Of a stretch of DNA of 63,249 nt, positions 268-32,850 are shown in pieces. The translations under genes were made by a program, and so were the position numbers. How positions within the stretch are numbered: the first letter of the stretch is position 1; the number at the start of each line of letters is the position of its first letter. Below the pieces are notes generated by a model. That model did no database searches. It had not been told where the DNA came from and was given only the letters and a program-made list of their open reading frames with translations. Source of the stretch: Kiloniellaceae bacterium (GTDB lineage Bacteria; Pseudomonadota; Alphaproteobacteria; Kiloniellales; J153); the NCBI GenBank assembly GCA_021776095.1, contig JAJFGO010000121.1, positions 1 to 63,249 on the forward strand, given 5' to 3'.

Positions 268-307
268 TTTTTAAGTCCGTTGCGTCTACCGATTCCGCCA
301 CGCCCGC
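268..307 (-). pseudogene. 5' half of tRNA-Leu(UAA), truncated at the anticodon loop (left copy)
   Basis: The minus strand from 307 reads as the acceptor strand, D-arm (GGTAGACGC) and 5' anticodon stem of a leucine tRNA, with anticodon-loop bases CTTAAAA giving anticodon UAA. Where the complementary stem (TCCG) should follow, the sequence becomes unrelated, and no T-loop (GTTCGA) is found further on. The gene is therefore cut in the anticodon loop. A similar half lies at 32449-32490. Together they mark the island ends. Confidence 0.75.
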
Positions 308-667
308 TTGTGCTTGGCATCCGATTCACCGTCCCTTTTTCCCCTATTTGACCAGCGGCCGCAACGGGGTCAGGCTCGGCCCATGTCCCTCAAGCCGGTA
401 ATTCTCGCGATCCTTGCTGGCTTCGGTTTGACGCTGCCGGGCGGGCCTTTCGCGGGCGGGCCCGCCCAGGCCGCTGAGGCGCGCGGGATCGCCCAGGTTC
501 TGGACGGCGACACCCTGGAGTTGGCCGGGCGGCGCCTGCGGCTTCATGGCATTGACGCGCCGGAACTGGGCCAGCTTTGCAGCCGGGATGGCGTGCCCTG
601 GCCTTGTGGCGCCGAGGCGGCCGCGTTGCTGCGACGACCGGTGGCGGAGCGGGAGGTCGCTTGCCGG
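269..667 (+). repeat. Left 399-nt direct repeat flanking the cytochrome island
   Basis: This segment matches 32452-32850 over 399 nt with no gaps. I count about 35 mismatches, roughly 91 % identity. It spans the tRNA-Leu 5' half and the first two-thirds of a secreted nuclease gene. Identity stops abruptly in the anticodon loop on one side and at the nuclease codons near 667 on the other. The divergence means the copies did not arise by a recent duplication; one was probably imported from a related strain. Confidence 0.8.
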
Positions 668-682
668 TTTCGAGATCCTTGA
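383..682 (+). pseudogene. Truncated secreted SNase-like nuclease (left copy)
   Basis: The 99-residue product has a signal peptide ending near AQA and the start of a staphylococcal-nuclease fold (DGDTLELAGRRLRLHGIDAPE). It matches the intact 173-aa gene at 32566-33087 up to about residue 95. At position 668 the sequence switches to a decayed serine-recombinase fragment, and the frame stops at once, so the C-terminal half with the remaining catalytic residues is missing. The ATG at 383 is preferred over the upstream ATG at 308 because the signal peptide begins there. Confidence 0.8.
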
Positions 683-781
683 CGTAGCGCTGCCGGTTCC
701 AGGCCAGGCGATTGACATAGAGCTCATTGTTTGCCGGCCACGTGTGGCGGTCCGATGGGTGCGGAACGTGGTGTCGCGCCA
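668..781 (-). pseudogene. Frameshifted fragment of a large serine recombinase
   Basis: On the minus strand one frame gives WRDTTFRTHRTATRG and the adjacent frame continues NNELYVNRLAWNRQRYVKD and LETGKR. These are the hallmark motifs of the Recombinase domain (PF07508) of large serine recombinases, normally contiguous in one frame. A frameshift joins them and both ends are missing, so it is a relic. It abuts the broken end of the left nuclease copy, which points to site-specific recombination or insertion at the island boundary. Confidence 0.7.
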
Positions 782-785
782 CAGG

Positions 786-1445
786 TTAGGGCGCCGGCTC
801 GTGTTCGATCACCACCGTGCGTGTCGTGCCGCTGGGCCCCGGGAATTCGGTGAAGAGGGCTCGAATCATAAGCGGCACCACGCGGCCGACTTCAGCTTCA
901 GGTCCGACGCTGATCACCCGTCCTTCAAAAACTTTCTTGGTCCGGCCTTGCCGCCAGAGCCTTGCCTCCAGGATGTCCAGTGTAAGGCTGCGCCGATAAA
1001 CCGTCCTTGTATCCTGGCTATATCCCATGGGGACATAGCCGCCACTTTCATAGACCCGCGCGGAAAAGTTTTTGCCCTCAGCGGTCCGGCCTCGGATGGT
1101 GCGGTACTGGTCCGGGTAATAACCGTAGATCGGCACCGATCTGCTTTCGGAGGTGCCGGACCCAATACCGTAATCCAGCCGGACGACGTAGTCGCTTTGC
1201 CCTAGATCGCCGGCCTGGTAAAAGCCGCGAGTCTGGAGTTCGTTGACGACGCGGGTCGCGTAGGACGCGAACTCCAGGCTATCCCTCTTGGCCTCATCAC
1301 TGGGGAGCAAAACAAAGCTCCGGGGCTCCCGTGCGGGCGTCAGGGTGTGAAATCCTGTGACCTCCGCGCTGAAAGGTGGGCTCGCGCAGGCGGCCAGCAC
1401 CAAGAGAACGGGTCCCAGAACGACGGCGACGAGATATTTCATCAT
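786..1445 (-). CDS. DUF4136-type periplasmic lipoprotein
   Basis: The 219-residue protein starts at the first of two ATGs at 1445. It has a clear lipoprotein signal with lipobox LAAC (Cys20). The body resembles DUF4136 lipoproteins: a beta-strand opening (FHTLTP), a central SDYVVRLDYGIGSG stretch, and a C-terminal LTLDILEARLWRQGRTKKVF stretch. The function of the family is unknown. It is the last gene of the leftward cytochrome arm, 46 nt after the heme ORF that ends at 1492. The longer reading frame up to 1715 only runs antisense-free through the preceding gene and lacks a signal peptide. Confidence 0.75.
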   Translation of the reverse strand: MMKYLVAVVLGPVLLVLAACASPPFSAEVTGFHTLTPAREPRSFVLLPSDEAKRDSLEFASYATRVVNELQTRGFYQAGDLGQSDYVVRLDYGIGSGTSESRSVPIYGYYPDQYRTIRGRTAEGKNFSARVYESGGYVPMGYSQDTRTVYRRSLTLDILEARLWRQGRTKKVFEGRVISVGPEAEVGRVVPLMIRALFTEFPGPSGTTRTVVIEHEPAP

Positions 1446-1491
1446 GATTCCAATATGGGGTGCTGATGGGCTCTTGGCGACCGGCGCAAAT

Positions 1492-2445
1492 TCACGGCCT
1501 GGAGTCCAGAAACGCACGGCGCATATAAGTGATAATTTCCTCGATCTGCTCCGTTTCCAAGACCTCGCGAAAGGCCGGCATGGACGTGTTCGGCAGCCCG
1601 CCAAGAATGACTTGCCGCAGGTCGTCATCGCTCGGACTTGTTGCGGCGTCGGCATCGGTAAAGGAAGGGGGGTTCGGATCGAGGAAGGTACCGATCCAGT
1701 TACGCCCCGTGCCATCCGCCGCGTGACACAGGGCGCAGGCCCTTTGATACAGGTTCCGCCCGGCGCGCTGCCGCGGCGTCAGATCGGTCAGGACGGGGAT
1801 GCGGTCGTGAGGGTTCTCGTCCTCATGGCCGTAACCGCGCCCGTAATCTTCGTGTTCGTTGTGATCCCCGTGCCCACCGTTTGGGTTCGGCGATGGCGCG
1901 CCGCCAGTTGCCGCAGCGTTCTCAGGCCGCGGATCTTGAGCGACGGTAAGCGCCGCGCGTTGGACCGTACCCTCATGGCAAATGCTGCAGGTACGCCTGA
2001 ACAGATCGAGGCCAGAGCGTTGCGCAGCATTTAGGCTTATCTCTCGTGCGTCGACAGCCAAAGTGCCGGTGACGAAGGGAAAAGCGGGGCCGTTGCGATG
2101 TTCGTGCTCCGGCCAACCGTTGGCGGCGGTGTGATAGCGAATGTTGGGGGCGGCACAGTGAACCATCGTCTCGAGCACGAAGGCCGCGACGGCTTCCATC
2201 TCGGCGTCGTCGAGGATTCCGGCGAAAGGCTGCATGGCGGATCGCGCGCGGCCGTGCCGCACCGCCCGTTCGATCCGATCAGCCGTCAGGTCCGGACTCT
2301 CGGTGAAATTGCGTGGTGCCGGATCCAGGTATTTGGCCGCCACGGTTTGCGCGTCCCCGCTGTAACCGTGGCAGAAATAGCAGTTTGTGTTGTATATTGC
2401 GCGTCCGCGCTCTAGGGCCGGATCGTCCGTAACGTCACAACCTAG
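1492..2445 (-). CDS. Triheme c-type cytochrome ORF that continues an upstream cytochrome through an A9 frameshift
   Basis: This frame encodes three class I cytochrome c modules with CYFCH, CSICH and CALCH and a His/Asp-rich linker (GGHGDHNEHEDYGRGYGHED). It has no signal peptide. Its first heme motif lies upstream of the only plausible start, a GTG at 2343, so translation from there would lose a heme. The frame is open back to a stop at 2470. It joins perfectly to the preceding triheme gene if one A is added to the A9 run at 2446-2454, making a six-heme protein of about 690 residues. Either polymerase slippage or a homopolymer error explains this. Confidence 0.7.
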   Translation of the reverse strand, partial: LGCDVTDDPALERGRAIYNTNCYFCHGYSGDAQTVAAKYLDPAPRNFTESPDLTADRIERAVRHGRARSAMQPFAGILDDAEMEAVAAFVLETMVHCAAPNIRYHTAANGWPEHEHRNGPAFPFVTGTLAVDAREISLNAAQRSGLDLFRRTCSICHEGTVQRAALTVAQDPRPENAAATGGAPSPNPNGGHGDHNEHEDYGRGYGHEDENPHDRIPVLTDLTPRQRAGRNLYQRACALCHAADGTGRNWIGTFLDPNPPSFTDADAATSPSDDDLRQVILGGLPNTSMPAFREVLETEQIEEIITYMRRAFLDSRP

Positions 2446-3572
2446 TTTTTTTTTACCGGTGCGTGATCGCTATGGGATGCCGGTGCAGCCCCAGGCCCAT
2501 GATCCGATCCGGGCATTGCTGGCGCCTCCGCATTGGTAAAAGCTTGATAGACATACTCGGCGACGTCGGCGATTTGCTGCAAGGTGAGCACCTTGGACCA
2601 CGCCGGCATATCGGTGCCGCGTACGCCTTTGGCGATTCCTTCGAAGATGTGCGGCCGGTCGAGTTCGGCGCGAGCGCGCGGTGCAGTAAAGTCCTTTGGT
2701 TTGCGGCGCATGAAATAGGCGCGCGGTCCATTTCCATCGCCGGTCATGCCATGACATTGACTGCAATTGGCGTCATAAAAAATCCGCCCGGCGGTCGCAC
2801 CGCCAATCAAGCCGATCGGGAAGGGGGCGTCCGGGTCCTTAATATGGCCGCCATGATCGTGCCCGCCAGCTGCCGTGCTTTGCTTTGTTGCAACCTCAAC
2901 GTGTTCCGGCTTCTCATGTTCGCTGTCTTGTGGGGCGCGCCCGAAAGTCATGCGTATGTAGTCAATCACGGCCGCGAGCTCTTCTCGGTCGTATTTCGTC
3001 GCAAATGGCATCATCGCGGTGCCGTCGACGCCGTAGGTCACCGCGTGGATCATGCGTTGGCGCGAAATTCCATGCGCTTTCTCGGAAGTGAAATCGAAGG
3101 GCGGTGGATTCAGGCTATTCTGAGCCCAGGACGCGGCATTGCCACGTTCGCCATGGCAGACACTGCAGGTTCGGGCATAAATCCTGCGCCCAACGCCGGC
3201 ATCGGCGACCGGCGCGGGAAGCATCAGGGCCTCGCGTATATAGTCGATAACCTGCGGCAAACCGTTCTTGCCCAGATCGTGGTCCCACTGTGCAACGACC
3301 TCCGCTCCATGGTCGTCGCGAGCCGCAATTATCATGCCGTCCCGGGTCATGCGGGCCACCGCCTCCGGGGAGGTAAAATCGACACTCGCGGTTTTGCCGG
3401 TGCCCTCGGAACCATGGCAGACGGCGCAGTTGTGGACATAGGCATCGCGCGCCGCCAGCATCTGTGCGCCCGTGGCGAGTCTATTGCCGTGATCGTGCGC
3501 CACCGCGCCGGCGGCGATGAAGAAGACGCAGACCAAGATGGCGGCAGGCCCAATCAGAGAGCTTTGTCGCAT
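2442..3572 (-). CDS. Secreted triheme cytochrome c (three class I domains)
   Basis: From the ATG at 3572 the product has a Sec signal peptide (VCVFFIAAGAVAH) and three class I cytochrome modules. The CxxCH sites are CAVCH (about 49-53), CSVCH (136-140) and CSQCH (270-274), with Met-containing tails such as TAMMPF and TDMPAW that could supply axial ligands. A His-rich stretch (GGHDHGGH) separates the second and third modules. Translation stops directly after an A9 run (minus-strand view), and the next cytochrome frame begins there, so the gene may really be the first half of a hexaheme protein. The upstream frame to 3737 overlaps the heptaheme gene and lacks a signal peptide. Confidence 0.8.
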   Translation of the reverse strand: MRQSSLIGPAAILVCVFFIAAGAVAHDHGNRLATGAQMLAARDAYVHNCAVCHGSEGTGKTASVDFTSPEAVARMTRDGMIIAARDDHGAEVVAQWDHDLGKNGLPQVIDYIREALMLPAPVADAGVGRRIYARTCSVCHGERGNAASWAQNSLNPPPFDFTSEKAHGISRQRMIHAVTYGVDGTAMMPFATKYDREELAAVIDYIRMTFGRAPQDSEHEKPEHVEVATKQSTAAGGHDHGGHIKDPDAPFPIGLIGGATAGRIFYDANCSQCHGMTGDGNGPRAYFMRRKPKDFTAPRARAELDRPHIFEGIAKGVRGTDMPAWSKVLTLQQIADVAEYVYQAFTNAEAPAMPGSDHGPGAAPASHSDHAPVKKN

Positions 3573-3721
3573 AGGTGCATTCGCATTCACTGGTTCGGAT
3601 CGCTGGCTTCGGCGATCACATCCAACTTGTACCCCGTTCGAGCCCAGGGTGTTCTGATGTAAGAGGTTACGAGTGCGACTTGTCAAGCCATAGACCGAGC
3701 CGCCCGGGTGACCGGCCCCGA

Positions 3722-4576
3722 TCACAAGGCGTGGCAATCAAGGCATAGGCCGTTTTCGGTGCGTGGCTTTCTGGCGTGGTCTTGGCTGTAGGGGACATGA
3801 CAGGATACGCACCCGACACGCCCATTTGGCAGGAGCATCTCATCTGCCAGGGCGCTACGTGGCCGGTAGCTGCCGCTTCGCGCCGCTTCGTCGTAGTCGG
3901 CGCCGATAGGGTGGTTCGCGCCGCGAGGGGCCGGGCCGGCCGGGGCATCGCTTTGTCCCAACGCCGCGACTTGCCGGCCAGATGGCATGCGATCGTCGTG
4001 GCAGATTATGCAGCGCTGAGAATAGGGGTCCAAGCTGGCCGATGACCGGGACCAAGCGTCGAAATGTGCCGACATCAACAAGGATTCGCCCTTGTCGGGC
4101 ATGGAGTCGAAGAATCCGGCGTCATGGCATGACCGGCAGAAATCTTCGCCGGTTGACGAAACCCGCAACAGCCCCGGATCGTCTCCATGCAAGGCGTGAC
4201 AGGTGCTACACGTCATGCGCCCGTCGCGGTCCAAAGGGAAGGCCGTGGAAAGCGGCCGTTCGGGATGAAATCCGCTAGGATGGCCGGCGACCGTGGCGCC
4301 GCCATGGCAGCCGGTACAGAGCCGCTCCTGGTCGACGATCGGTTGCCCTGAAATCGACTGTGCCACCCCAAGGCTAAGGCCATGGCAATGCTGGCAATTC
4401 AAGGCGGCATGGCCACTCGCCGCCAGCCGGGCCGCCAGTTCCATACCGTTCAGCGCTGGCGCCTGGAAGACAAAGAGGAAAAGTAAAAGGTGAATTAAGA
4501 CGCAGGCCGCCACCACCGCAACATGGTGGGAGCGGCCAGCACCTTCTTGGCAGGGCGCAGGCCCGGACTGTGGCAT
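3722..4576 (-). CDS. Heptaheme membrane-anchored cytochrome c
   Basis: The 284-residue product has an N-terminal uncleaved-looking transmembrane helix (VAVVAACVLIHLLLFLFVF) and seven CxxCH motifs: CQHCH, CTGCH, CSTCH, CRSCH, CIICH, CVSCH and CLDCH (about residues 61, 87, 123, 147, 189, 256, 278). Extra histidines (HALHG, GHPSGFHP, NHPIG) suggest bis-His hemes of the cytochrome c3/NapC-NrfH/MtrA style. The single anchor would place it on the periplasmic face of the inner membrane, a good position to take electrons from quinol or other carriers. It is first in the leftward arm after the fnr-like gene. Confidence 0.8.
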   Translation of the reverse strand: MPQSGPAPCQEGAGRSHHVAVVAACVLIHLLLFLFVFQAPALNGMELAARLAASGHAALNCQHCHGLSLGVAQSISGQPIVDQERLCTGCHGGATVAGHPSGFHPERPLSTAFPLDRDGRMTCSTCHALHGDDPGLLRVSSTGEDFCRSCHDAGFFDSMPDKGESLLMSAHFDAWSRSSASLDPYSQRCIICHDDRMPSGRQVAALGQSDAPAGPAPRGANHPIGADYDEAARSGSYRPRSALADEMLLPNGRVGCVSCHVPYSQDHARKPRTENGLCLDCHAL

Positions 4577-4694
4577 TGCGTCACATGCCTGTCGGTAGGA
4601 GAGGTTAGTACCTATCTACCCTAAACGACTGAACATTCCGTGAATTTGGAGGCGCGACCCCGCCGTTAGAAGGCTTGAGACCGGGCTGGGCTGG

Positions 4695-5441
4695 CTAGAG
4701 ACCGATGGACATGCGATGACTCGGCATTTCCTCGAACCCGGCAAGCTGCTGAAGTCTCGGAACGTTCTTTAGCAGCACCGATTTGTTGTCCAAGGTCCTG
4801 ATGAGAGCCTCCGCCTTGAAGCGGGTGAACGTCCGGCTGATGGTTTCGCTTGTAACGCCCAGATGGTCAGCGATGTCGTTGCGGGGCATCAGCGTATACA
4901 CGAGGTCTGGATCCTCATCGTCCCGCTTCCAGCGTCGACTCAGCAGCAGGAGGAAAGCCGCCAATCGCTCCGGCGCCAGCTTGCGGCCGAGCAAAATCGA
5001 ATGGTCGTATTGCGCCTCGATTTCGTCCATAGCCATCACAAGCATGGCGAAACATAGCGCGGAGTGATCCTGCAAAAATTCCGAGAATAGCTCTTTCTGG
5101 AACGCGCAGACATCGAGCTCGGTGATCGACTCCGCCGTACAGTGGGCGCCGGCGCGGTACTTTATGCTGCCTAAAATATCTCCGGAACCCAGGAATCCCG
5201 TGATCTGCCGCTTGCCGTTGGGCGCGTCCCGATACAGTTTGACCATGCCCCGCGTGATAACGAAGACGTTATCAACGGGATCATCCTGATTGTAGATGAC
5301 TTGGCTTCGGTCGAACCGTCGCCTCTTTGATAGCGCCTGCAGCTCCGCCCGTTCCCTAGTGCTCGTGTGAGAGCACAGGGATATATGGCGAACGATACAA
5401 TGCCGGCAGTCCGGCCTTACCGTATCTGTTGCGCAAAACAT
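4695..5441 (-). CDS. FNR-type oxygen-sensing transcription regulator (Crp/Fnr family)
   Basis: The 248-residue protein has an N-terminal cysteine cluster (C3, C12, C15, C23), a cyclic-nucleotide-binding-like beta-roll, a further cysteine near 112 (DVCAFQ), a dimerisation helix and a C-terminal helix-turn-helix (NDIADHLGVTSETISRTF). The cysteine layout and the E-x3-SR recognition helix match the 4Fe-4S FNR/FnrN/FnrL group, which bind TTGAT-N4-ATCAA when oxygen is low. Two close matches to that site occur in this island (7354-7367, 29746-29759). It probably switches the electron-transfer genes on under low oxygen. Confidence 0.88.
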   Translation of the reverse strand: MFCATDTVRPDCRHCIVRHISLCSHTSTRERAELQALSKRRRFDRSQVIYNQDDPVDNVFVITRGMVKLYRDAPNGKRQITGFLGSGDILGSIKYRAGAHCTAESITELDVCAFQKELFSEFLQDHSALCFAMLVMAMDEIEAQYDHSILLGRKLAPERLAAFLLLLSRRWKRDDEDPDLVYTLMPRNDIADHLGVTSETISRTFTRFKAEALIRTLDNKSVLLKNVPRLQQLAGFEEMPSHRMSIGL

Positions 5442-5483
5442 CGCAGGTATTGCCTGTCCGCCTCGCTCATAAAAGGGAGCGAG

Positions 5484-5612
5484 CTATGAATCCACGTGCA
5501 CAGCCGTTTTCCGGCCTTCGACTTTGCCGCGCTTGACCCGAGTGGCCAGCATGGCATTCTTTCCCATAGATGCCTGGATAAGGCAGATGAAGCAACGAAT
5601 TTGCGAATGCAT
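5484..5612 (-). CDS. Possible 42-residue small protein upstream of the FNR gene
   Basis: The ATG at 5612 follows an AGGGA Shine-Dalgarno-like motif. The product starts MHSQIRCFICLIQASMGKNA and has a very basic C-terminal half (TRVKRGKVEGRKT). It ends 43 nt before the FNR start and could be cotranscribed with it. I do not recognise a family. A longer overlapping frame (5417-5764) looks less natural. Confidence 0.25.
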   Translation of the reverse strand: MHSQIRCFICLIQASMGKNAMLATRVKRGKVEGRKTAVHVDS

Positions 5613-6063
5613 AAAGTATCCCTGTTGGGGCCGCGGTCGTTGTGGTCCGGTGTCCGGAGATGAACCGGGCTCAGGTCAGCACTTTCGTGTCTCGATTCTT
5701 TCGTGAACCGTATCGTAGATGCTAGTGGCGGCACCCGGGCGATCGACTGTGTGATCATGGACAAGACCTAGGTTATTGAATTCGTTTCAGAAAAATCGGA
5801 TACCGAAGGTTTCCGACCGGGTCCTGTTTCCGGAACCGGAGGCGCCATATTCCATACGCCGGCCTATCGGCTTTGCCTTATTCGATCGAATAGAATTGCC
5901 CCGGGCAATTACGAAAGAGCGGTTCTATCCATGACCGTGGATCCACGCCCGCTGCTTGATTTGGGTCATTGAGGGCTTCCGTCGCGCGGTGATAGTCGAT
6001 TGGCACGGGCAGGTGATCGCGCTTCGGTATCAATTGGGATGCAACTGAGATTTGGGTAAGACC
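5613..6063. other. Divergent intergenic region between the fnr arm and the NHL operon
   Basis: About 450 nt separate the leftward FNR arm from the rightward NHL lipoprotein gene, so both promoters should lie here. I found neither an FNR box nor a CTTACAA pair, and no convincing ORF or terminator. Confidence 0.5.
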
Positions 6064-7218
6064 ATGCCGGATACGACAGCTTCGACGGCGGCTCGCTTTG
6101 CTTGGCGCCCGTTTTTTCTGTGGGTCAAGTGTCCTCCGATCCGATGGCTTCGGTACCCCTGGACCGCCGCGATTATACTGATAGTCGCATCCTGCGCCGC
6201 GCCGAAACCGCCGGAAGCAGTGGAGATCGTCTACCCGCCCGCGCCCGAAGAACCGCGTTACTACTATGAAAGGACCCTTTACGGGAGCACAGACGTCAAA
6301 TCGGAGACCTCGACCGACCGGTTTAGACGTTTTGCCACCGGGGAATCCGCGCGGGGCCGGGGCTTCGCGAAGCCGTTTGACGTGCGGGCCGACAATGGGC
6401 GTGTATTTATCAGCGACACTGTGAACCGGCGGGTTGCGGTACTCGATTTCCCGCAGCAACGCTATTACGAGATCGGGACGCAAGGAGTCGGCCGTCTTGC
6501 CAAACCGCTCGGCCTGACCACCGACGCTCAAGGCCGCCTATATGTGGTCGACGGCACGGCGAAGCGGGTTCAGGTTTACGATCTGGAGGGCACTCACCTG
6601 ACGAGCATTGGGACCGGAGAAATTCTGCTACGCCCGTCGGGAATTGCCGTGAACCCGGATGGGTCCAGGATCTACGTTGTAGATACTGCGGGCGTGTCCA
6701 GCCAGGATCATACGATCCATGTCTTCGGGCCGGACGGCAAGCGTCTGTTCAACTTCGGAACCCGTGGGAAAGAAGAGGGGAATTTGAACCTGCCACTCAT
6801 GGTGGCCATGGCCCCGGATGGCAACTTGTACGTCTCCGATACCGGAAACTTCCGGGTCCAAGTCTTTGACGCGGACGGCAACTTCATCAGGACCTTCGGC
6901 AGTATCGGCCGCCGGCCCGGGCAGTTCTCGCATCCTAAAGGAATTGCGGTAGATTCCGACGGCCGAATCTTTATCGCCGATAGCGGCTTCGCGAACTTCC
7001 AGATTTTCGATAGCCAGGGTCAAATTCTCTTGTTTATAGGTGAAAGAGACGCGCTTGGTGGGCCCGGAAAGTACATTTTGCCGGCCGGGATCTCGGTCGA
7101 TGTGGATGGGCGGATATATTTTGTCGACCAATTTTTCCGCAAAGTGGACGTCTTTCGCCCGGCGGGGTTGCCAGCAGACGCGCCGCTAGGCCAGCCCCCA
7201 GCTGACCCGACCTCCTGA
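6064..7218 (+). CDS. NHL-repeat beta-propeller lipoprotein
   Basis: The ~384-residue protein has a lipoprotein signal with lipobox VASC and then about six NHL repeats. Each blade carries the pattern P-x-G-(I/L)-x-V-(D/N)-x-x-G-x-(I/L)-(Y/F)-V-x-D, for example KPLGLTTDAQGRLYVVD and HPKGIAVDSDGRIFIAD. Such propellers are protein-interaction platforms. It precedes two tetraheme cytochromes and has a paralog next to the 11-heme cytochrome (16251-17360), so these lipoproteins probably scaffold cytochrome export or docking. The ATG at 6064 is preferred over a TTG at 6052. Confidence 0.85.
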   Translation: MPDTTASTAARFAWRPFFLWVKCPPIRWLRYPWTAAIILIVASCAAPKPPEAVEIVYPPAPEEPRYYYERTLYGSTDVKSETSTDRFRRFATGESARGRGFAKPFDVRADNGRVFISDTVNRRVAVLDFPQQRYYEIGTQGVGRLAKPLGLTTDAQGRLYVVDGTAKRVQVYDLEGTHLTSIGTGEILLRPSGIAVNPDGSRIYVVDTAGVSSQDHTIHVFGPDGKRLFNFGTRGKEEGNLNLPLMVAMAPDGNLYVSDTGNFRVQVFDADGNFIRTFGSIGRRPGQFSHPKGIAVDSDGRIFIADSGFANFQIFDSQGQILLFIGERDALGGPGKYILPAGISVDVDGRIYFVDQFFRKVDVFRPAGLPADAPLGQPPADPTS

Positions 7219-7331
7219 ATGATGTGGCGGGTTTGGAATACAGTTAGGAAAGTTCTTCTATTTACATCAAATAGTTAGAAGAATACCGCGGTGCCGAAGT
7301 AGGGTAATGGCTGATGCTCGCCTGGCCATTC

Positions 7332-7349
7332 CTTACAAAAACCTTACAA
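7332..7349 (+). promoter_or_regulatory. CTTACAA direct-repeat box (candidate OmpR-type regulator site) before the tetraheme genes
   Basis: Two CTTACAA half-sites lie 11 bp apart (7332-7338 and 7343-7349), one helical turn, as expected for a dimer of an OmpR/PmrA-like regulator. The same tandem box occurs at 28602-28619 and, inverted, at 28390-28407 in front of the island's own response regulator gene. It sits directly upstream of the FNR-like box. Confidence 0.65.
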
Positions 7350-7353
7350 TTCG

Positions 7354-9252: not shown

Positions 9253-9254
9253 CC

Positions 9255-25452: not shown

Positions 25453-26034
25453 ATGATCCGGCGTTTCGTTTTAGTCTTGTCTCTGGTTTTATTTTCGGGC
25501 CCGACCGTAGCCGCTGACCTCGCGGCCGGACTGGCCTTGTTTGAGGCCGGCGAATTCGAGCGCGCACATGACGAGTTGACGCCGCTGGCCCGGCAGGGCG
25601 ATCCGCGCGCACAATACATTCTAGGTATCATGTACCTAAACGAATACGCCGCCTCGCCGAGCGCGACGGCGGCGGCGGACTGGATTGGCAAGGCGGCGGA
25701 GCAAGATTATCCGGCGGCGCAGACCGAACTCGGCCGCATGTACCGGACTGGCGATGGCGTAGCGCAGGATTACGCCAAGATGGCGCAGTGGTACGCGCGC
25801 GCCGCGGAGCGGGGTGACGTGGGCGCTCAATTATTTCTCGCGGATGCCTATGCCTACGGATACGGCGTCGAGGCTGATCTCGTTCAAGCGTACATGTGGT
25901 ATGAAATTGCAATTCAATACTGGGGATCGCTCGCGGTCCGGGCGCGCGACGTCGTGGCTGAAGGGATGTCTGCCGATCAGGTCGCCGAAGCGGTCCAGTT
26001 GGCGGGCAAGTGGATCAAGGACCACGCCAACTAG
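25453..26034 (+). CDS. Sel1-repeat periplasmic protein
   Basis: The 193-residue protein has a Sec signal peptide (VLVLSLVLFSGPTVAADL) and about four Sel1-like repeats (AAEQDYPAAQTELGRMYRTG, AAERGDVGAQLFLADAYAYG). Sel1 repeats mediate protein contacts. A GGAG site lies before the ATG at 25453. Last gene of the plus-strand core; its stop overlaps the converging histidine kinase gene by 4 nt. Confidence 0.82.
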   Translation: MIRRFVLVLSLVLFSGPTVAADLAAGLALFEAGEFERAHDELTPLARQGDPRAQYILGIMYLNEYAASPSATAAADWIGKAAEQDYPAAQTELGRMYRTGDGVAQDYAKMAQWYARAAERGDVGAQLFLADAYAYGYGVEADLVQAYMWYEIAIQYWGSLAVRARDVVAEGMSADQVAEAVQLAGKWIKDHAN

Positions 26035-27518
26035 TGATCTAACGCGCGCTCCGCTTCTTCTTCGATCGACGCAGGCTCGACCGCAACGAGACGCATTGTA
26101 AAAACGGCACCGCCGCCCGGCGCGTCGTCGACGGATATTTCGCCGCCCATGCTCTCGACGATCCGCTTGACGATCGATAATCCTAGGCCGGCCCCTGGCC
26201 CGTTCTTTTGATCGCCACGCCAGAACCGGTGAAATATCGCCTCGCGCTCTTCCTGCGGTACGCCTTTTCCCTGATCTATGACTCTGACTTCGCCGTTCAG
26301 GCTCAGACGGGCCTCGACCGTCGTGCCGGACGGCGTGTGAGCCAGGCCGTTCTCGACCAAATTGCGGACCGCCCGGCTTAGCATTCGTACGCAACCTCTG
26401 ACAAAGATGGGTCCCTTCGCCCCGGTTAAAGCAATCTGCTTTTTTTCGCGCACGGCCAAGGGCGCGAGGGTGGCTATCACTTCGGCGCAGACGTCGTGGA
26501 GGTCCGCCGGCTCCGCGTCGACATTGGCTTCGCTTTGTGATTCAAGCGCGGCAAGATCGAGAAGCTGATGCACGACGTCGGTCATGGCTTCGACATCCTC
26601 ACGCAATTCTGCGGCGACCGACTTGTCTTTCAAAGTGTCCAAATGGGCTCGCAGAACCGCAAGAGGCGTCAAGAGCTCGTGCGCGGCATCAGCGCTGAAC
26701 TGACGCTGGGAGTCGAGGGCACGATCAAGCCGGTCCAAAGCGCCGTTCGTGGCGACGATAAGTGGCAGGATCTCCTTGGGCATCCCCTGGGTTGGCAGCC
26801 GTACACCCGAGGATCGCGGGCCGATCTCCGCCGCATAGCGGGACGCAAGTTGGATAGGCGCGATGGCACGCCGCATGATCCCGAATACCAGCACGCCGTA
26901 TAACGCGCCGAATATCCCGACCAAGCCAACGAGCATCGTCAACGTGGTCCGGTCGATTCTTTCCTTAACATCGGTTACGTCCGTATAGACTTCGAAAACG
27001 CCGACAATTTTCCGGTCATTGTCGAAGATGGGCACATAGGTTTCGACGATATCTCGAAGAAAAACCTCACCTGAGTAAGCGCTAAATCGGTTTCGGAACG
27101 AAAGAGCACTACTCGCGCGACCGTCGTGCGCGGCCGTCATGAAGGCAGCGCTGTTCGAATAGTCACCCCCGATCTGCGGCAGATCGGTAGAAAAAATCGT
27201 TAGCCCTTCTTTGTTGTATATCTTGACCTTCAGAACGTGCATATCCTTGGTCAGTGCTCTGATTGCGGCGTCTATTTCCATCGTCTCCGGCCTTGCGCGC
27301 AAAGTTGCGCCGTCCAAGTCCCTGGCCTCGGCAATATAGTCGCCGTAACGATTCCAGACCGTATTCAGGAGAATTCTATCGATGCCAATGTTGTGCTTGG
27401 CCGACATCTCGGTGAGGTCGCGCACGGCCTGTTGATGGTAAAACCAAGCGACCATGGCCAATGCCAAGAGCAGGACGATCGCACTTGCCAACGCGAGGTA
27501 CCGGTTTATTCTCAACAT
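26031..27518 (-). CDS. Membrane histidine kinase of the island two-component system
   Basis: The 495-residue protein has TM1 (about 7-27), a ~165-residue periplasmic sensor of the dCache/PAS-like sort (VKIYNKEGLTIFSTDLPQIG), TM2 (about 192-215), a HAMP-like linker, a dimerisation box with phospho-His280 (ADAAHELLTPLAVL) and an ATPase domain (NLVENGLAHT, DQGKGVP, GAGLGLSIVKRIV). It is 48 nt downstream of its response regulator gene. The ligand is unknown; it may sense redox or surface conditions. Confidence 0.9.
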   Translation of the reverse strand: MLRINRYLALASAIVLLLALAMVAWFYHQQAVRDLTEMSAKHNIGIDRILLNTVWNRYGDYIAEARDLDGATLRARPETMEIDAAIRALTKDMHVLKVKIYNKEGLTIFSTDLPQIGGDYSNSAAFMTAAHDGRASSALSFRNRFSAYSGEVFLRDIVETYVPIFDNDRKIVGVFEVYTDVTDVKERIDRTTLTMLVGLVGIFGALYGVLVFGIMRRAIAPIQLASRYAAEIGPRSSGVRLPTQGMPKEILPLIVATNGALDRLDRALDSQRQFSADAAHELLTPLAVLRAHLDTLKDKSVAAELREDVEAMTDVVHQLLDLAALESQSEANVDAEPADLHDVCAEVIATLAPLAVREKKQIALTGAKGPIFVRGCVRMLSRAVRNLVENGLAHTPSGTTVEARLSLNGEVRVIDQGKGVPQEEREAIFHRFWRGDQKNGPGAGLGLSIVKRIVESMGGEISVDDAPGGGAVFTMRLVAVEPASIEEEAERALDH

Positions 27519-27566
27519 GAGACGACTCGAATCCCAGTGTTTGGTAAGGCACAGCGTCTGGGGGGC

Positions 27567-28268
27567 CTAGGACGATCCAATTGGCGACTCCTCATCAGCG
27601 GTCATCAGATATCCAATGCCGCGAACAGTGTGGATCGTGGCGTTGGCTCCGGAATCGGTCAGCTTCTTGCGAACACGGTGCACCAAGACTTCGACGGAAT
27701 TGGAAGATAAGTCCTCACCGGCGCCATACAGACTCTGCTCCATTAGGTGCTTTGGTGCGACCTTTCCGCCGCGACGCATCAGTTGCTCGAGGACACTGAG
27801 TTCCCGGCGTGAGAGGGGCACGGGTTGATTGCTCCCCGCAAGGCGTGCCTCTCTGGCAACGACGTCCAGTTCAAGATTGCCGATCTTCAGTGTCTCGCCT
27901 AGGGCCGCGCCCGGCCGCCTCAGCAAGGCGTGTAGCCGGGCGATAAGTTCTTCCATCGCGAAGGGTTTAGTGAGGTAATCGTCAGCGCCAGCGTTCAATC
28001 CTTGAATTTTGTCAGCAAGCTGCACGCGCGAAGTAAGGATCAGCACTGGGATCGCCGGGTCTTTGGCGCGGAGTTCGTCGAGGAGATCCAACCCTTCTAT
28101 GTCGGGCAGGCCCAGGTCCAGGATGACCACGTCGTAACGGACGCACTCGAAGTTTTCCAGCGCATCGGAACCCTTGGCCGCCAGATCTACATCGAATTGT
28201 GCGGCGTTGAGTCCCTTGCGGATAAAGCCCGCCAGGCGCGTGTGATCTTCGATCAGGAGTATCCGCAC
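27567..28268 (-). CDS. OmpR/QseB-type response regulator
   Basis: The 233-residue protein has a receiver domain with the acidic pocket (ED at 8-9), phospho-Asp51 (VILDLGLPD) and Lys in LTKPF, and a winged-helix DNA-binding domain (LSRRELSVLEQLMRRGGKVA, VEVLVHRVRKKL). It is the partner of the adjacent kinase. A CTTACAT/CTTACAA box at 28390-28407, in the gene's own upstream region, suggests autoregulation. Confidence 0.92.
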   Translation of the reverse strand: MRILLIEDHTRLAGFIRKGLNAAQFDVDLAAKGSDALENFECVRYDVVILDLGLPDIEGLDLLDELRAKDPAIPVLILTSRVQLADKIQGLNAGADDYLTKPFAMEELIARLHALLRRPGAALGETLKIGNLELDVVAREARLAGSNQPVPLSRRELSVLEQLMRRGGKVAPKHLMEQSLYGAGEDLSSNSVEVLVHRVRKKLTDSGANATIHTVRGIGYLMTADEESPIGSS

Positions 28269-28389
28269 GGCTTTCCTTCCGAGTTATCGGGATCGGTGCT
28301 CTTGACCAGGCCCACGGGCGTGGATCCAAGAGACTATCGCCGGGAAGGTCGTTCCTAAGACGTGAAACATTTTGGGCAGTTCCGGGCCG

Positions 28390-28407
28390 TTGTAAGGACT
28401 ATGTAAG
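28390..28407 (-). promoter_or_regulatory. CTTACAT/CTTACAA direct-repeat box before the response regulator gene
   Basis: Read on the minus strand, CTTACAT (28407-28401) and CTTACAA (28396-28390) are 11 bp apart, the same layout as at 7332-7349 and 28602-28619. It lies about 120 nt before the regulator's ATG and points that way. Confidence 0.6.
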
Positions 28408-28429
28408 GCGCCCCGAGTATATATATGCG

Positions 28430-28534
28430 CGGTCTCATAGGCCAAGGTTCGCCTTTGTGGACCACGTGCATTCGTAAACTCATTAAGCGGTGCCCCCAAG
28501 CCCATCTGAGGTGCGGAGGCGCCGCTTTTTCTTT
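28430..28534 (+). ncRNA. Candidate small RNA or leader ending in a terminator
   Basis: Between the two divergent CTTACAA boxes lies an orphan terminator: GCGGTGCC (28487-28494) pairs with GGCGCCGC (28518-28525) with one G-U pair, followed by TTTTTCTTT. An AT-rich run (TATATATATG near 28420-28427) could be a -10 region. No ORF is obvious. A ~100-nt transcript would fit, but nothing here proves it is made; the 5' end is a guess. Confidence 0.3.
28487..28534 (+). terminator. Rho-independent terminator-like hairpin
   Basis: An 8-bp stem (28487-28494 with 28518-28525) with a 23-nt loop is followed directly by TTTTTCTTT. It lies in a divergent intergenic region where no coding transcript needs to end, hence the small-RNA proposal. 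Confidence 0.45.
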
Positions 28535-28601
28535 GCCTATGGATCGCTCGTTGAGAGGCCCCGCTGGGGCGGACTGGCGGTAAATGGGGCCCTGGCGAAA
28601 T

Positions 28602-28619
28602 CTTACAAAAAGCTTACAA
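28602..28619 (+). promoter_or_regulatory. CTTACAA direct-repeat box before the second triheme pair
   Basis: CTTACAA occurs at 28602-28608 and 28613-28619, 11 bp apart. The 20 bp from 28601 differ from 7331-7350 at only two positions. It lies 41 nt before the ATG at 28660. Confidence 0.65.
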
Positions 28620-28659
28620 TTAGCGGAAGGGTATCGTTGGCTGCCGGGATGGCCGAAGC

Positions 28660-29298
28660 ATGGCCAGAAGTTTGATAGGAAAATCAACCGCAGCAACGCT
28701 CCTTGCGGCAGTCTTTATATTGGCTGGATGCGATAAACCGGATGATCTCAAGTCGTTCGCAACGACGGGGCGGCCATCGGCCAACCCGGCTTCTGCACCG
28801 GCTCCGGCGCCGCTAACTCCACCGGATCCGGCCATACCTTGGTCGTTGCTTGCGCGAGACGACCTGCACGATCCCAACAATCTAGCCCTGTCACTCTTGC
28901 AGGAGCCGGCCGAGGCCTTGGCCGTCTTGGCTCCGGCCCAGGAGGGCAATTTCGTGGATTGGGCCGCGGCGCTGCGCTCCGGCGAAATCTCGCCGCGCAC
29001 CAATGTCTATCCGGAAACCAAGATCCGTGTGCTCGACCTCGACGTCCTGATGACCGATACGGCCGCAATGCCGGTCGTGCGCTTTCCGCACCGGCCCCAC
29101 ACCGAATGGCTGGATTGCAGCAATTGCCACGACAAGATTTTTGTCGCGAAAGGCGGCGCCAATCCCATAACCATGTTCAAGATCTTGCAGGGAGATTTCT
29201 GCGGCCAGTGCCACGGCGCCGTTTCATTCCCGCTGACCCAGTGCAGGCGCTGTCACAGTGTCCCGCGCGACCAGGCGTTAAGGGTGGAGCCGCAATGA
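28660..29298 (+). CDS. Triheme cytochrome lipoprotein (copy 2)
   Basis: The 212-residue product has a lipoprotein signal with lipobox LAGC, a Pro/Ala linker and a triheme core with CSNCH, CGQCH and CRRCH. Its core (VRFPHRPHTEWLDCSNCHDK) matches 12770-13507. Here the protein is lipid-anchored rather than having the N-terminal membrane segment of copy 1. Its stop overlaps the next start (ATGA). Confidence 0.85.
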   Translation: MARSLIGKSTAATLLAAVFILAGCDKPDDLKSFATTGRPSANPASAPAPAPLTPPDPAIPWSLLARDDLHDPNNLALSLLQEPAEALAVLAPAQEGNFVDWAAALRSGEISPRTNVYPETKIRVLDLDVLMTDTAAMPVVRFPHRPHTEWLDCSNCHDKIFVAKGGANPITMFKILQGDFCGQCHGAVSFPLTQCRRCHSVPRDQALRVEPQ

Positions 29299-29702
29299 AA
29301 CCCGCACGTTCGACCATACGGCGGCTGGGGTGGCGCTTCCTGCCGTTTTACCTGGCGGTCCTGGCGCTGGGCTTTATCTGGCCGGTGGCGGCCGAGTACG
29401 GCGACGTGGTCCTGAACCACAGGTCCGATCGCGCCGGCGTCCGCCCGGTCATATTTCCTCATTGGTTTCATCGGATCCGCTTCCGCTGCAAGGTGTGCCA
29501 TCACGAACTTGGCTTCGAGATGCGGGCCGGCGCCAATGATGTAAAGATGAGCGATCTAGCACAGGGCAAGTTCTGCGGCATGTGTCACAACAATGAAGTT
29601 GCCTGGGGTTTGGAAAACTGTGACCTATGCCATTCCGGGAAGCCGGGCTTGGCCGGCGGCATCTATGGCGGGCACCGGACCTTGGGTCCTGGCCGGTGGT
29701 GA
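29295..29702 (+). CDS. Triheme c7-like periplasmic cytochrome (copy 2)
   Basis: The 135-residue protein has an N-terminal signal/anchor helix and CKVCH, CGMCH and CDLCH. It shares AEYGDVV, FPHWFHRIRFRC and the WGLENC block with 12313-12735. It is translationally coupled to the triheme lipoprotein by a 4-nt overlap, so the two probably work as an electron-passing pair. Confidence 0.87.
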   Translation: MKPARSTIRRLGWRFLPFYLAVLALGFIWPVAAEYGDVVLNHRSDRAGVRPVIFPHWFHRIRFRCKVCHHELGFEMRAGANDVKMSDLAQGKFCGMCHNNEVAWGLENCDLCHSGKPGLAGGIYGGHRTLGPGRW

Positions 29703-29745
29703 CCACCAGATATAGGGGTGAATCTGGAAGTCATTCAATTGCGGC

Positions 29746-29759
29746 TTGATTTGGATCAG
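29746..29759 (+). promoter_or_regulatory. FNR-type box TTGAT-TTGG-ATCAG before hemA
   Basis: This matches the FNR consensus at nine of ten positions with the same final G as the box at 7354-7367. It lies about 250 nt before the hemA start, leaving room for a leader. It would tie haem synthesis to low oxygen. Confidence 0.6.
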
Positions 29760-29827
29760 TTACCGCCGCTGCAGGATATCCTATCGTTAATTTCGAAAAA
29801 AAGGGGAGGCAGCCACGCGACCGCGCG

Positions 29828-29944
29828 ATGGCTGCCCGTTGGATGCATGTGGTTGACGAATTGCCGGGCGCCGAAGGCAGGGCCTGCAGCAAGTACGCTG
29901 TCGGAATATTGGGCCAGATCCTCCGAGCCATCCGCAATTTTTAG
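29828..29944 (+). CDS. Possible 38-residue upstream ORF in the hemA leader
   Basis: From ATG 29828 the frame reads [17 protein letters not shown] and ends [21 protein letters not shown] across two segments, an amphipathic short peptide. No good ribosome site sits at the right distance (GGGGAGG is 18 nt away). A 7-bp hairpin (29808-29814 with 29830-29836) covers its start. It could be a leader peptide or chance. Confidence 0.22.
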
Positions 29945-30009
29945 GCCCCGCGCCGGCACGAATTGCTCGATGCCAAGTGGCCGGGTGGGGTCCGCAAGGA
30001 GGCCGGACC

Positions 30010-31221
30010 ATGGACTACAATCGCTATTTTGCCGACAAACTCGATGCTCTGAAACGCGAGGGACGCTATCGCGTCTTCGCGGACCTGGCCCGCAACGCCG
30101 GGCGCTTTCCCTTTGCGCAAAATTACGGAGACATTGGGCCGCGTGAGATCACCGTTTGGTGTAGCAATGACTACCTGGGAATGGGGCAGCATCCAGCCTT
30201 GATCGAGGCTATGACCCAGGCGATCGAGAAATACGGCTGCGGCGCGGGCGGAACCCGCAACATCTCTGGATCCTCGCACCCGGTCATGCAGTTGGAGGGC
30301 GAGCTAGCCGATTTGCACGGCAAGCCGGCGGCCTTGGTCTTCACCTCCGGTTACGTGGCGAATCAAGCGTCGCTTTGCACATTGGCGGCGCTACTGCCTG
30401 GATGCATTGTATTTTCAGATACCCTCAACCATGCGTCCATGATCGAAGGCATCCGCCACAGCCGGGCCGCCAAGACGATCTTCCGACACAACGATCCCGC
30501 GCACCTGGATAGGCTGCTGCGCGAATCCGATCCGGCCGTCCCAAAGATCGTTGCCTTCGAATCGGTGTATTCGATGGATGGCGATATCGCACCGGTTGCC
30601 GAGATCTGCGATGTGGCCGAGCGGCATGATGCGCTGACCTACCTGGATGAGGTTCATGCGGTCGGTCTTTACGGGCCGCGTGGTGGCGGTATTGCCGAAG
30701 AGCGCGGCCTAATGGGCCGGATCGACGTGATCAACGGTACGCTCGCGAAGGCGTTCGGCGTTCTGGGCGGCTACATCGCCTCCTCCCGTGAGATCGCCGA
30801 TACGATCCGCAGCTTTGCGTCAGCCTTCATCTTCACGACCGCCCTGCCGCCGGCCGTGGCTGCCGGTGCCCTGGTTTCCGTGCGCCACCTGAAATCTAGC
30901 GGCGTCGAACGGGCTATACATCAGGAACGCGCCGCAACCCTGAAGCGCCGTCTGCGCCAGGCCGGACTTCCGGTAATGCCGTCGCAAAGCCATATCGTGC
31001 CGGTATTGGTCGGCGAGGCGGTGCGTTGCAAGCAGGTCACCGATATCCTGCTCGACGAATACGGGATTTATATCCAACCGATCAACTATCCGACGGTACC
31101 GCGTGGAACCGAGCGACTGAGGATCACCCCGGCGCCCTACCACACGAACGCGATGATGGACGACCTGGTGTCGGCGTTGAGCGAGATATGGGGCCGCCTC
31201 GAAATACCCTGCGCCGCCTAG
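30010..31221 (+). CDS. hemA: 5-aminolevulinate synthase (C4 pathway)
   Basis: The 403-residue protein makes 5-aminolevulinate from glycine and succinyl-CoA, the first step of haem synthesis in alphaproteobacteria. It shows the fold-type I PLP motifs [42 protein letters not shown] and the PLP-lysine loop [15 protein letters not shown] perfect AAGGAGG site precedes the ATG at 30010. Its presence inside a cytochrome island, behind an FNR-type box, suggests a dedicated haem supply; the organism probably has another copy elsewhere. Confidence 0.95.
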
Positions 31222-31314
31222 CGGAGATCGCGAGAACCGTTCTAAAGGGGTGTTCGGATTCACTGCCGAAAAGAGGATCTCATGCGATCAGTGTACTGAG
31301 GGGGAGCCGTTCAA

Positions 31315-31905
31315 GTGAATCGTTATGCGACCAGACTCTGCGAAGAATGCCGTCGAAGTTTTGTGTTCCGTCGGCGAATTGACCTGCGCTTGTGCGCGCT
31401 ATGTCCGGTGAGGGAGTTGACGGTCCCGACCTCGGACCTGATCATATGGGATCAACCAAGGTTAACCCGGGAGCGTGTCTCGAGAATTCGACGCAGTTTT
31501 TGTTATTTGCAACCCGACATCGAATTGTTCGCGCAGGTGCTCTATGCCCGGCTCTTCGCCGAGTATCCGCACATCAAGCGCCTGTTTCGAGGCGACCAGA
31601 TGGCGCAGGAGAAACAGTTGGCGGCCATGCTGACCACCATGATCAGAGGGCTCGACCGCTTGGATCAACTCAAGCCGACCCTCTGGTCACTCGGCCGCCG
31701 GCACGTCAAGTATGGGGTCCGGGAAGCCGATTTCGACGCGTTTTTCGAGGCGCTGATGTGGGCCCTTGGAGTCTTTCTTGGCGACCGGTTTTCTCGTTCG
31801 ACCCAGGACGCCTGGGTCAGCTTTTACGCCTTCATATCTCAAATCATGCAGGACAGACTGGACTGGCACAGCCCCGCCGGGCTTCAAACCTTCGACGCTG
31901 CATAG
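31315..31905 (+). CDS. Globin with N-terminal four-cysteine (zinc-ribbon-like) module
   Basis: The 196-residue protein starts at a GTG behind GGGGGAG. Residues 1-30 hold C9-x2-C12-x14-C27-x2-C30, a zinc-ribbon pattern. Residues ~50-190 form a single-domain globin of the flavohaemoglobin/neuroglobin class: LQPDIELFAQVLYARLFAEY, distal region EKQLAAML, and proximal His in GRRHVKYGV. The C-terminal reductase is absent. It follows hemA by 93 nt. It may sense or scavenge oxygen or NO; the fusion with a cysteine module hints at signalling. Confidence 0.78.
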   Translation: MNRYATRLCEECRRSFVFRRRIDLRLCALCPVRELTVPTSDLIIWDQPRLTRERVSRIRRSFCYLQPDIELFAQVLYARLFAEYPHIKRLFRGDQMAQEKQLAAMLTTMIRGLDRLDQLKPTLWSLGRRHVKYGVREADFDAFFEALMWALGVFLGDRFSRSTQDAWVSFYAFISQIMQDRLDWHSPAGLQTFDAA

Positions 31906-32448
31906 GAAGACCCGAGCAGTAACTGACTGCTGAGCGGCGAGTCGCAAAGTTCCTAATTTGCAATTCGCGATGGCCTGGAACGGTGACCGCTTTCCCGTCG
32001 TGACCGACCTCGTCTCACCGCTCTGAGCATGTAAGATGTAGCGGTGGGTCGGTGATTTCCTACCGCGACCTCCCAGTCGAGTGCTGCCACGCATAGCATC
32101 AACGTTTCACAGAGCGGGATACGTTCCATACGAAAACTAATGAAACGCACGAAGTTTAACCCTCAGTTGTCCATAAATTGTGCCGGTTGTGAGCCTCGCA
32201 ACCACTACAGGTATTGTTAGAACTAGTTTGCATAGATTAGGAGATACTTGGTGAAGGGGGCTTCGTCCAATACGAGTTGTTCGTCCAAATCTCGCGGCGC
32301 AGGCCTACCGTACATTGCCACCCGGATTGCCACCCAATCCACTATCACGCACCGTCATTAAACGGATTCGCCAGACGACTAGGGCTGAATTTTTCGCCTA
32401 AGCCATTGAAAATGAAAACTAGGCCAAACCGAACGGATGGTGAGCTAA
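31906..32448. other. Right-end intergenic region of the island
   Basis: About 540 nt between the globin gene and the right tRNA fragment. I see a small hairpin after the globin (AGCAGT / ACTGCT near 31914-31930) but no integrase, no transposase remnant and no convincing ORF. Its base composition is more AT-rich than the flanks. Confidence 0.45.
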
Positions 32449-32490
32449 GGATTTTAAGTCCGTTGCGTATACCAATTTCGCCACGCCCGC
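32449..32490 (-). pseudogene. 5' half of tRNA-Leu(UAA), truncated (right copy)
   Basis: On the minus strand from 32490 the sequence reads as the first 42 nt of tRNA-Leu: acceptor strand, D-arm (GGTATACGC) and CGGACTTAAAATCC, covering the anticodon loop and three bases of the 3' stem. It then departs from tRNA sequence and no T-arm follows. Like the left copy it cannot give a functional tRNA. Confidence 0.75.
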
Positions 32491-32850
32491 TTGTGCTTGG
32501 CATCCGATTCACCGTCCCTTTTTCCCCTATTTGACCAGCCGCCGCCACGGGGTCAGGCTCGTACCATGCCCCTCAAGCCGGTAGTTCTCGCGATCCTCGC
32601 TGGCCTCGGTTTGACGTTACCGGGCGGGCCTTTCGCGGGCGGGCCCGCCCAGGCCGCCGAGGCGCGCGGGATCGTCCGGGTTCTGGACGGCGATACCCTG
32701 GAATTGGCCGGGCGGCGCCTGCGGCTTCATGGCATTGACGCGCCGGAACCGGGCCAGCTTTGCAGCCGGGATGGCGTGCCCTGGCCCTGCGGGGCTGAGG
32801 CGGCCTTATTGCTGCGCCGCTTGGTGGCCGGACGAGAGGTCGCCTGCCGG
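32452..32850 (+). repeat. Right 399-nt direct repeat flanking the cytochrome island
   Basis: Matches 269-667 without gaps and with about 35 substitutions. It contains the tRNA half and the first part of the intact nuclease gene, and so is probably the resident chromosomal copy. Confidence 0.8.

Follow-up and report, generated by a model that had tools for sequence, protein, structure and literature searches.

A Uet-type multiheme cytochrome island with OmcE-type tetrahemes in an alphaproteobacterium, probably inserted at tRNA-Leu(UAA)

We analyzed a 63,249-nucleotide contig from a Kiloniellaceae bacterium (JAJFGO010000121.1; the whole stretch is called the window below) and found that the multiheme cytochrome island at positions 269-32850 is a Uet cluster, a known but little-studied kind of system, in an unusual host. 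Our overall reading, which we consider probable, is that this extracellular electron transfer (EET) cluster would form a conduit with an OmcE-type nanowire, that it was inserted at a tRNA-Leu(UAA) gene, and that slippage at a run of nine adenines (A9) may give products of its cytochrome gene cytB with three and six hemes. The assignment draws directly on homology, heme and histidine content, gene order and a barrel prediction.

The Uet gene set and its OmcE-type cytochromes

An initial annotation had counted 45 CxxCH motifs, and all are present. A scan for open reading frames (ORFs) of at least 60 amino acids with ATG, GTG or TTG starts placed 44 within 11 ORFs, and the last (CYFCH, near 2380 on the minus strand) lies in open frame just upstream of the ORF at 1492..2343, before its first start codon. 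No ORF of this length between 29.7 and 63.2 kb of the window contains CxxCH, and since no motif-bearing ORF lies beyond 29,702, all motifs fall inside the island, whose limits are the outer edges of a direct repeat pair (269-667 and 32452-32850; 400 bp, 91.5% identical). Pfam confirmed two NHL proteins, a rotamase (the peptidyl-prolyl isomerase, PPIase), c7 cytochromes, Cytochrom_C_asm, thioredoxin/TPR, a Crp/FNR regulator, a histidine kinase and a response regulator, and matched ResB slightly below its cut-off (23.8 bits against 24.6). Together with 5-aminolevulinate synthase (ALAS; TIGR01821, 665 bits), these bear out the NHL, PPIase, System II, FNR, two-component and ALAS genes that the annotation had named; its list did not include a globin, a PilJ-domain protein, a Sel1 protein, the two Reg_prop propellers or the -1 frame junction at 2446-2454.

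The same gene set is already in the literature under the name Uet, from Tenderiales and Gallionella (PMC10734462; papers are cited throughout for excerpts of their text). Uet is named after the Candidatus Tenderia electrophaga set, which six Gallionella have, four of them with the barrel, and its subunits are an undecaheme (UetJ), an extracellular tetraheme (UetA), trihemes (UetD/E/G), a PPIase (UetB), NHL proteins (UetH/I) and a barrel (UetC) (PMC10734462). Elsewhere, uetABCDEFGHIJ is called a conserved electron-uptake cluster (PMC12575090), and UetJ is described with its porin in Leptothrix-group genomes (PMC13386937). All of these subunit types occur in one locus here, on the plus strand: NHL propeller 1 (UetH/I-like; 6052..7218), OmcE-type tetrahemes 1 and 2 (UetA-like; 7457..8263 and 8392..9252), a SurA/parvulin-type PPIase (UetB-like; 9048..10340, real start probably near 9255), a predicted outer-membrane barrel (UetC-like; 10303..12186), two UetD/E-like triheme c7 proteins (12313..12735 and, with an N-terminal extension, 12611..13507, real start probably near 12770), NHL propeller 2 (UetH/I-like; 16251..17360), the undecaheme (UetJ-like; 17364..19775) and two more triheme c7 cytochromes (UetG-like; 28660..29702). 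Two paralogous helical repeat proteins (13533..14438 and 14446..15393, plus strand) stand where UetF would fall in the order. A Ca. Tenderia contig (L079) carries, in order, matches to OmcE2 (230 bits), the PPIase (32 and 164 bits, in two pieces), the barrel (68 bits), c7a (207 bits) and c7b (241 bits), and ends before H-J.

A scan of genome contigs for relatives gave at least 524 loci with OmcE-type genes, of which the best 80 were analyzed with profiles built from the window and its congeners (OmcE hits below 60 bits dropped). Because each locus was cut 10 kb to either side, or earlier by a contig end, the co-occurrence counts are lower bounds: OmcE stands with a PPIase in at least 60 of the 80 and with an NHL gene in at least 69, the core of OmcE-type tetraheme, PPIase, barrel, c7a and c7b is found in at least 43, and these five plus NHL and an undecaheme-like gene in at least 30. 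The distinct EET system proposed by the annotation is thus rejected, Uet being already published; the annotation had said that a well-described cluster in close relatives would refute it, and such a cluster is indeed described, though elsewhere and not in close relatives. The 49 loci among the best 80 with OmcE, PPIase, c7a and c7b belong to Gammaproteobacteria (22), Betaproteobacteria (19), unplaced Pseudomonadota (4), Magnetococcia (2), Alphaproteobacteria (1) and Nitrospirota (1). An OmcE-type match was found in 24 of 398 genomes in an even sample of the phylum (own included; one at E 2e-4) and in 3 of 385 in an even sample of the class (own included; one weak, E 8e-4), and the barrel in 4 of 98 genomes (own included). 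Of nine family genomes, five gave an undecaheme match, four of these with at least 79% identity. A second OmcE-type cluster, with an OmcE-domain protein of 641-643 aa, was seen at L117, L118 and L102 (G001 C44, G003 C30 and Kiloniellaceae OFTM138); this protein has 11 heme motifs in L102 and L118, and the window's genome gave no such match.

Both tetrahemes are homologous to chain 7tfs_A (E 6.2e-25 for tetraheme 1, 1e-20 for tetraheme 2), and 7TFS is OmcE, a filament protein (PMC12954529). The mature part of each contains exactly eight His, four in CxxCH and four distal ones, aligned with the His of 7TFS; this is the number needed for four bis-His hemes. The HTPH histidine is replaced by Met in two alignment rows from one genome (G175). 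In the undecaheme (803 aa), residues 29-242, carrying hemes 1-4, match 7tfs_A (E 1.7e-22), and seven further hemes lie beyond. Both halves of an OmcE-domain signature (a regular expression) were found in 33 of 45 undecaheme-like entries, several of them cut by contig ends and several being copies from one genome. By sequence homology, then, the UetA-like tetrahemes and the first domain of UetJ are OmcE homologues. No paper among the matches listed names both UetA and OmcE; the link is possibly already in print. We consider it unlikely that Uet is a porin-cytochrome conduit in which the OmcE-type tetrahemes are single, non-polymerizing surface cytochromes and UetJ alone crosses the barrel: PMC10734462 does treat Uet as a porin-cytochrome complex whose tetraheme is extracellular, and OmcE homology is no proof of filaments, but both tetrahemes keep all eight His ligands with none to spare, and in OmcE one heme takes its His from the neighboring subunit (PMC9473688).

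The outer-membrane barrel named by the annotation gave no Pfam or NCBIfam match and no sequence match among solved structures; an AlphaFold2 (AF2) model from an alignment of 28 relatives nevertheless predicts, with confidence, a barrel of 28 strands (predicted local distance difference test, pLDDT, 87.2; pTM 0.68). Against this model MtrB (6r2q_B) ranked third in Foldseek and had a VIA Z of 16.5 (315 residues), level with unrelated barrels. Two c7 proteins score above the cut-off of TIGR04257 'nanowire_3heme' (40 bits), the first at 60.4 bits (also PF14522, and 3ov0 at E 5.4e-37) and the extended one at 64 bits. A DmsE/MtrA-family decaheme, a type that the annotation had not recognized, was not found among the four cytochromes scanned: TIGR03508 gave 27.7, 22.7, 34.9 and 34.3 bits for tetraheme 1, tetraheme 2, the undecaheme and the heptaheme, against a cut-off of 192.2 (the class-I cytochromes and two c7 proteins stood outside this test). 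The barrel and the tetrahemes have signal-peptide-like starts (judged by eye, not by SignalP), and the claimed route for electrons from inner membrane to surface is likely.

Block movement and the tRNA-Leu(UAA) site

The island had been called one transferable unit. We compared four genomes of the genus, the window's own and congeners G001, G002 and G003, and found by blastn that a 31.1-kb unit (770..31916) aligns end to end with G002, in pieces of 72-83% nucleotide identity and in another chromosomal context. The alignment with G003 spans 1348-29714. A DUF4136 protein frame (786..1715, minus strand) stands at the same end of the unit in G002, which also includes ALAS (29977..31221, plus strand) and the globin (31315..31905, plus strand); none of the three was found beside the cluster in G003. 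Between species, the cluster flanks share no ORF above 40% identity in three contexts (compared were 30 kb on the right of the window, whose left is the contig end, 9 and 15 kb in G002, and 13.5 and 10 kb in G003), whereas in a control region around ccmF 28, 27 and 28 of 44 ORFs match in G002, G003 and G001, their order being conserved from 2.5 kb onward. GC content is 0.58-0.60 in the cluster and 0.61-0.65 in the flanks. In G002 (contig C36) an IS240-type transposase piece lies at the left edge (63 bits), and a related transposase fragment 0.5 kb past the right edge (a translated match of 73 residues only). These comparisons support a discrete unit that appears to have moved in the past as a block. 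Present transfer is unsupported: no integrase or transposase was seen among the island ORFs scanned (short gap frames were read by eye only), and tetraheme 1, the only island gene searched, had no match in 72,556 plasmids, by which plasmid-borne spread is rejected.

Vertical inheritance within the genus, with shuffling by ordinary rearrangement and an incidental repeat at 269/32452, would account for the presence of the cluster in three of the four genus genomes and one other genus of the family, for a five-gene tree (53 entries) in which the window, G002, G003, L044 and L035 (class not given) form one clade on a long stem (support 1.000), and for the island ORFs being free of an integrase. 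It sits poorly with three contexts that share no flanking ORF next to a largely syntenic control, with the GC difference, with the transposase piece at the edge in G002 and with the broken tRNA-Leu at the ends of the window's island, and we regard it as rather improbable.

These ends lie in the two repeat copies. The left copy (269..667, plus strand) contains nt 1-39 of tRNA-Leu(UAA) (269-307, minus strand) and the 5' part of an SNase-like gene, and the right copy (32449..32850, plus strand) contains nt 1-42 (32449-32490, minus strand) and the start of a complete SNase-like gene at 32491-33087. No intact tRNA-Leu(UAA) was found in the window's 95%-complete assembly. In G001 (contig C80) an intact tRNA-Leu(UAA) precedes the SNase gene with no island; G003 (C13) has an intact tRNA-Leu(UAA) with an EamA gene, no island and no SNase match. 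Over its first 5 kb, from SNase to a peptidase, the right flank of the window matches G001 C80 in order. G002 (C52) carries the 5' half of tRNA-Leu before an integrase-like ORF (PF00589 22.5 bits, cut-off 27.1; two SAM-like integrase domains just over theirs). Because the tRNA is broken at both island ends, the matching sites in congeners are intact and island-free, and the same tRNA appears to be targeted in G002, insertion at a tRNA-Leu(UAA) hot spot is likely in the window's genome. A whole pathway would thus change place as a block, in a class where OmcE-type genes are rare.

Next to this integrase-like ORF and 5' half, the tRNA-Leu(UAA) at the G002 C52 site is split after U34 by a group I intron-like sequence (L166:12171-12502; RF00028 49.5 bits, gathering 50). 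Such an intron was rejected as the cause of the broken tRNA-Leu here, since the window gave no Rfam match and, among the sites examined, only that of G002 has one. Beside the G003 cluster (C21, L011:1-13530), frames similar to those of a DNA methyltransferase and a Vsr nuclease, along with large unknown proteins, form what is perhaps a defense island (by eye).

Right of the island the window resembles ordinary chromosome, with transporters, a peptidase, methyltransferases and a molybdenum-cofactor radical SAM enzyme. It also contains a tandem repeat in 8-bp steps (33993-34087), an inverted repeat pair (47413-47539 and 55920-56047; 128 bp, 99% identical), a direct repeat pair (47173/53419; 245 bp, 85%) and an ORF (59286-59840, plus strand) whose Ntox37 match stays below threshold (23.6 bits, cut-off 27.8).

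The cytB-cytA junction

Two cytochrome genes at the left of the island, both on the minus strand, are joined by the A9 run (2446..2454; T9 on the plus strand). The first, cytB (2442..3737), has three class-I heme motifs and a signal-peptide-like start, and ends GTA AAA AAA AAC TAG, with the 0-frame stop directly after A9. The second, cytA (1492..2445), has three class-I heme motifs and neither start codon nor signal peptide ahead of its first CxxCH; the -1 frame from A9 stays open into it. G002 and G003 keep A9 with a stop directly after the run, and in L044 (Alphaproteobacteria) and L104 (Gammaproteobacteria) the codon phase of A9 differs, the shift once more being -1.

We then tallied loci with cytB and cytA adjacent on the same strand (left out were L125, a repeat of the window, one row of L147 for an internal piece of its split cytA, and cytA genes without such a neighbor), calling signal peptides by a hydrophobicity window rather than SignalP. 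A9 was present wherever cytA lacked a signal peptide (5/5 loci; window, L008:10900, L013:7302, L044:4555, L104:6096), and no run of more than seven A occurred where cytA had one (0/47 loci, in sets of 27, with two rows from L089, and 20 that may share species), an association with Fisher p 4e-7, kinship ignored. On a cytA tree (58 rows, the duplicate own row L027 left out) the trait needs two changes; the starred branches alone force only one, so a single origin followed by losses could also account for it. Because of this 5/5 against 0/47 split, the data suggest programmed slippage at A9, which would yield 3-heme and 6-heme forms of the cytB product. The sequence features expected of slippage are here: a conserved run, a 0-frame stop soon after it, an open shifted frame and a downstream part that is not exportable alone.

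No RNA fold after A9 stands out in the five loci (z -0.21, 0.66, -0.81, 0.48, -1.66). A structure-stimulated ribosomal frameshift is accordingly rejected as the favored mechanism, and transcript slippage, which needs no fold, is the one we would favor. Homopolymers are error-prone and can be contingency loci, so that the junction could instead reflect faulty assembly, gene decay or phase variation between A8, A9 and A10. The missing fold fits such an explanation too, but the run is exactly A9 in five assemblies and never A8 or A10, it is always coupled with a lost signal peptide and a -1 frame that stays open over three heme motifs, and no other A/T run reaches nine in the window, in L044, in L104 or in the stretches covered from G002 (56 kb) and G003 (52 kb), although in 25 island frames AAG is used 154 times and AAA 76 times; error, decay or switching is therefore very improbable. 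Programmed slippage at A9, if true, would be a recoding signal that sets the heme number of a respiratory cytochrome, in a gene that an ordinary ORF list splits into two.

Proposed electron route and known systems

The remaining island genes include a heptaheme cytochrome with an N-terminal hydrophobic helix, a candidate inner-membrane anchor by eye (3722..4576, minus strand), a Crp/FNR-type regulator (4695..5441, minus strand) and a PilJ-domain protein (15454..16254, plus strand). After the undecaheme follow, on the plus strand, ResB- and ResC/CcsA-like genes for System II cytochrome c maturation (19772..21614), a TPR-thioredoxin (TlpA/ResA-like; 21611..22654), a monoheme class-I cytochrome c (22667..23098), two Reg_prop propeller proteins (23064..25396) and a Sel1-repeat protein (25354..26034), and on the minus strand a histidine kinase with an OmpR-type response regulator (26031..28268). 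ResB/ResC is a second maturation system, because System I (CcmF) is likewise present in all four genus genomes; it adjoins NHL2 in L040 and L042 too.

From this gene content we propose an electron path in which the anchored heptaheme and the class-I cytochromes (cytB and cytB-cytA) would exchange electrons between the membrane chain and the triheme c7 carriers. The c7 proteins would contact UetJ in or below the 28-strand barrel, and the OmcE-type domain of UetJ may dock the first subunit of an extracellular filament polymerized from OmcE-type tetrahemes. The PPIase and NHL proteins would aid folding and export, ResB/ResC/TlpA would add maturation capacity, and ALAS would add heme supply. More generally, and tentatively, Uet loci may be nanowire builders, with UetJ as the adaptor by which the wire begins or is held in the 28-strand barrel; in this lineage A9 slippage may set the ratio of 3-heme to 6-heme carriers that feed it, the recoding having arisen in Alphaproteobacteria and probably again in a gammaproteobacterium. 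This would tie the little-studied Uet pathway to a filament protein of solved structure and make its mechanism testable, asking whether UetA polymerizes and whether UetJ anchors the wire.

The direction of electron flow cannot be read from sequence. That the system takes up electrons, oxidizing Fe(II), Mn(II) or a cathode, rather than discharging them is quite possible, at a little under an even chance: Uet was named in a cathode-oxidizing lineage and found in iron oxidizers (excerpts of PMC10734462, PMC13386937 and PMC12575090), and the class-I cytochromes of the island, with a cbb3 oxidase gene (ccoN) in four of four genus genomes, fit a high-potential path. On the other side, Geobacter uses OmcE for transferring electrons to Fe(III) and Mn(IV) (PMC9473688), undecaheme clusters are also cited for a manganese-reducing Dechloromonas (PMC13264449), and, of the three genus genomes with the cluster, two yielded no RuBisCO.

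Several observations weigh against the nanowire conduit or its insertion. RuBisCO is present in the own genome and in G001 but turned up in neither G002 nor G003, and a Tenderia-like electroautotrophic role therefore does not hold across the genus; as its presence does not track the cluster, RuBisCO was rejected as a companion. G001 lacks the barrel. The barrel model is as close to TonB receptors and porins as to MtrB (Z 14-16.6), the AF2 model of tetraheme 1 is poor (pLDDT 34), and no quinol dehydrogenase of CymA, ImcH or CbcL type was recognized in the island. Past its first 5 kb, the right flank is unmatched in the G001 stretch (16/97 ORFs overall). The Ca. Tenderia undecaheme gene co-clusters in expression with respiratory complexes but showed no differential expression when two electrode potentials were compared (PMC5371394, in excerpt).

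Known systems share parts of this design. A multiheme operon of ANME-partner bacteria, as excerpted from PMC5539420, likewise has a six-bladed propeller and a PPIase beside multiheme cytochromes, and differs in its 16- and 26-heme cytochromes, of which the island has none. MtrCAB, MtoAB and PCC3 also combine a large barrel with multiheme cytochromes, and the barrel model resembles MtrB among many barrels; the island differs in having no DmsE/MtrA-type decaheme over the cut-off and a barrel without a family match. With the Geobacter OmcE nanowire (PDB 7TFS) it shares a homologous tetraheme with all eight His ligands, and it adds a barrel, four c7 proteins and an undecaheme with an OmcE-type domain. 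The closest likeness is to the Uet cluster itself, with the tetraheme, PPIase, barrel, triheme c7, NHL and undecaheme in comparable order. Only the island, which belongs to another bacterial class, has two tetrahemes, System II, PilJ, Reg_prop, ALAS, a globin, a two-component pair and the A9-joined cytA/cytB. Two additions to Uet worth testing would be the OmcE identity of UetA and of the first domain of UetJ, and the putative recoding at A9.

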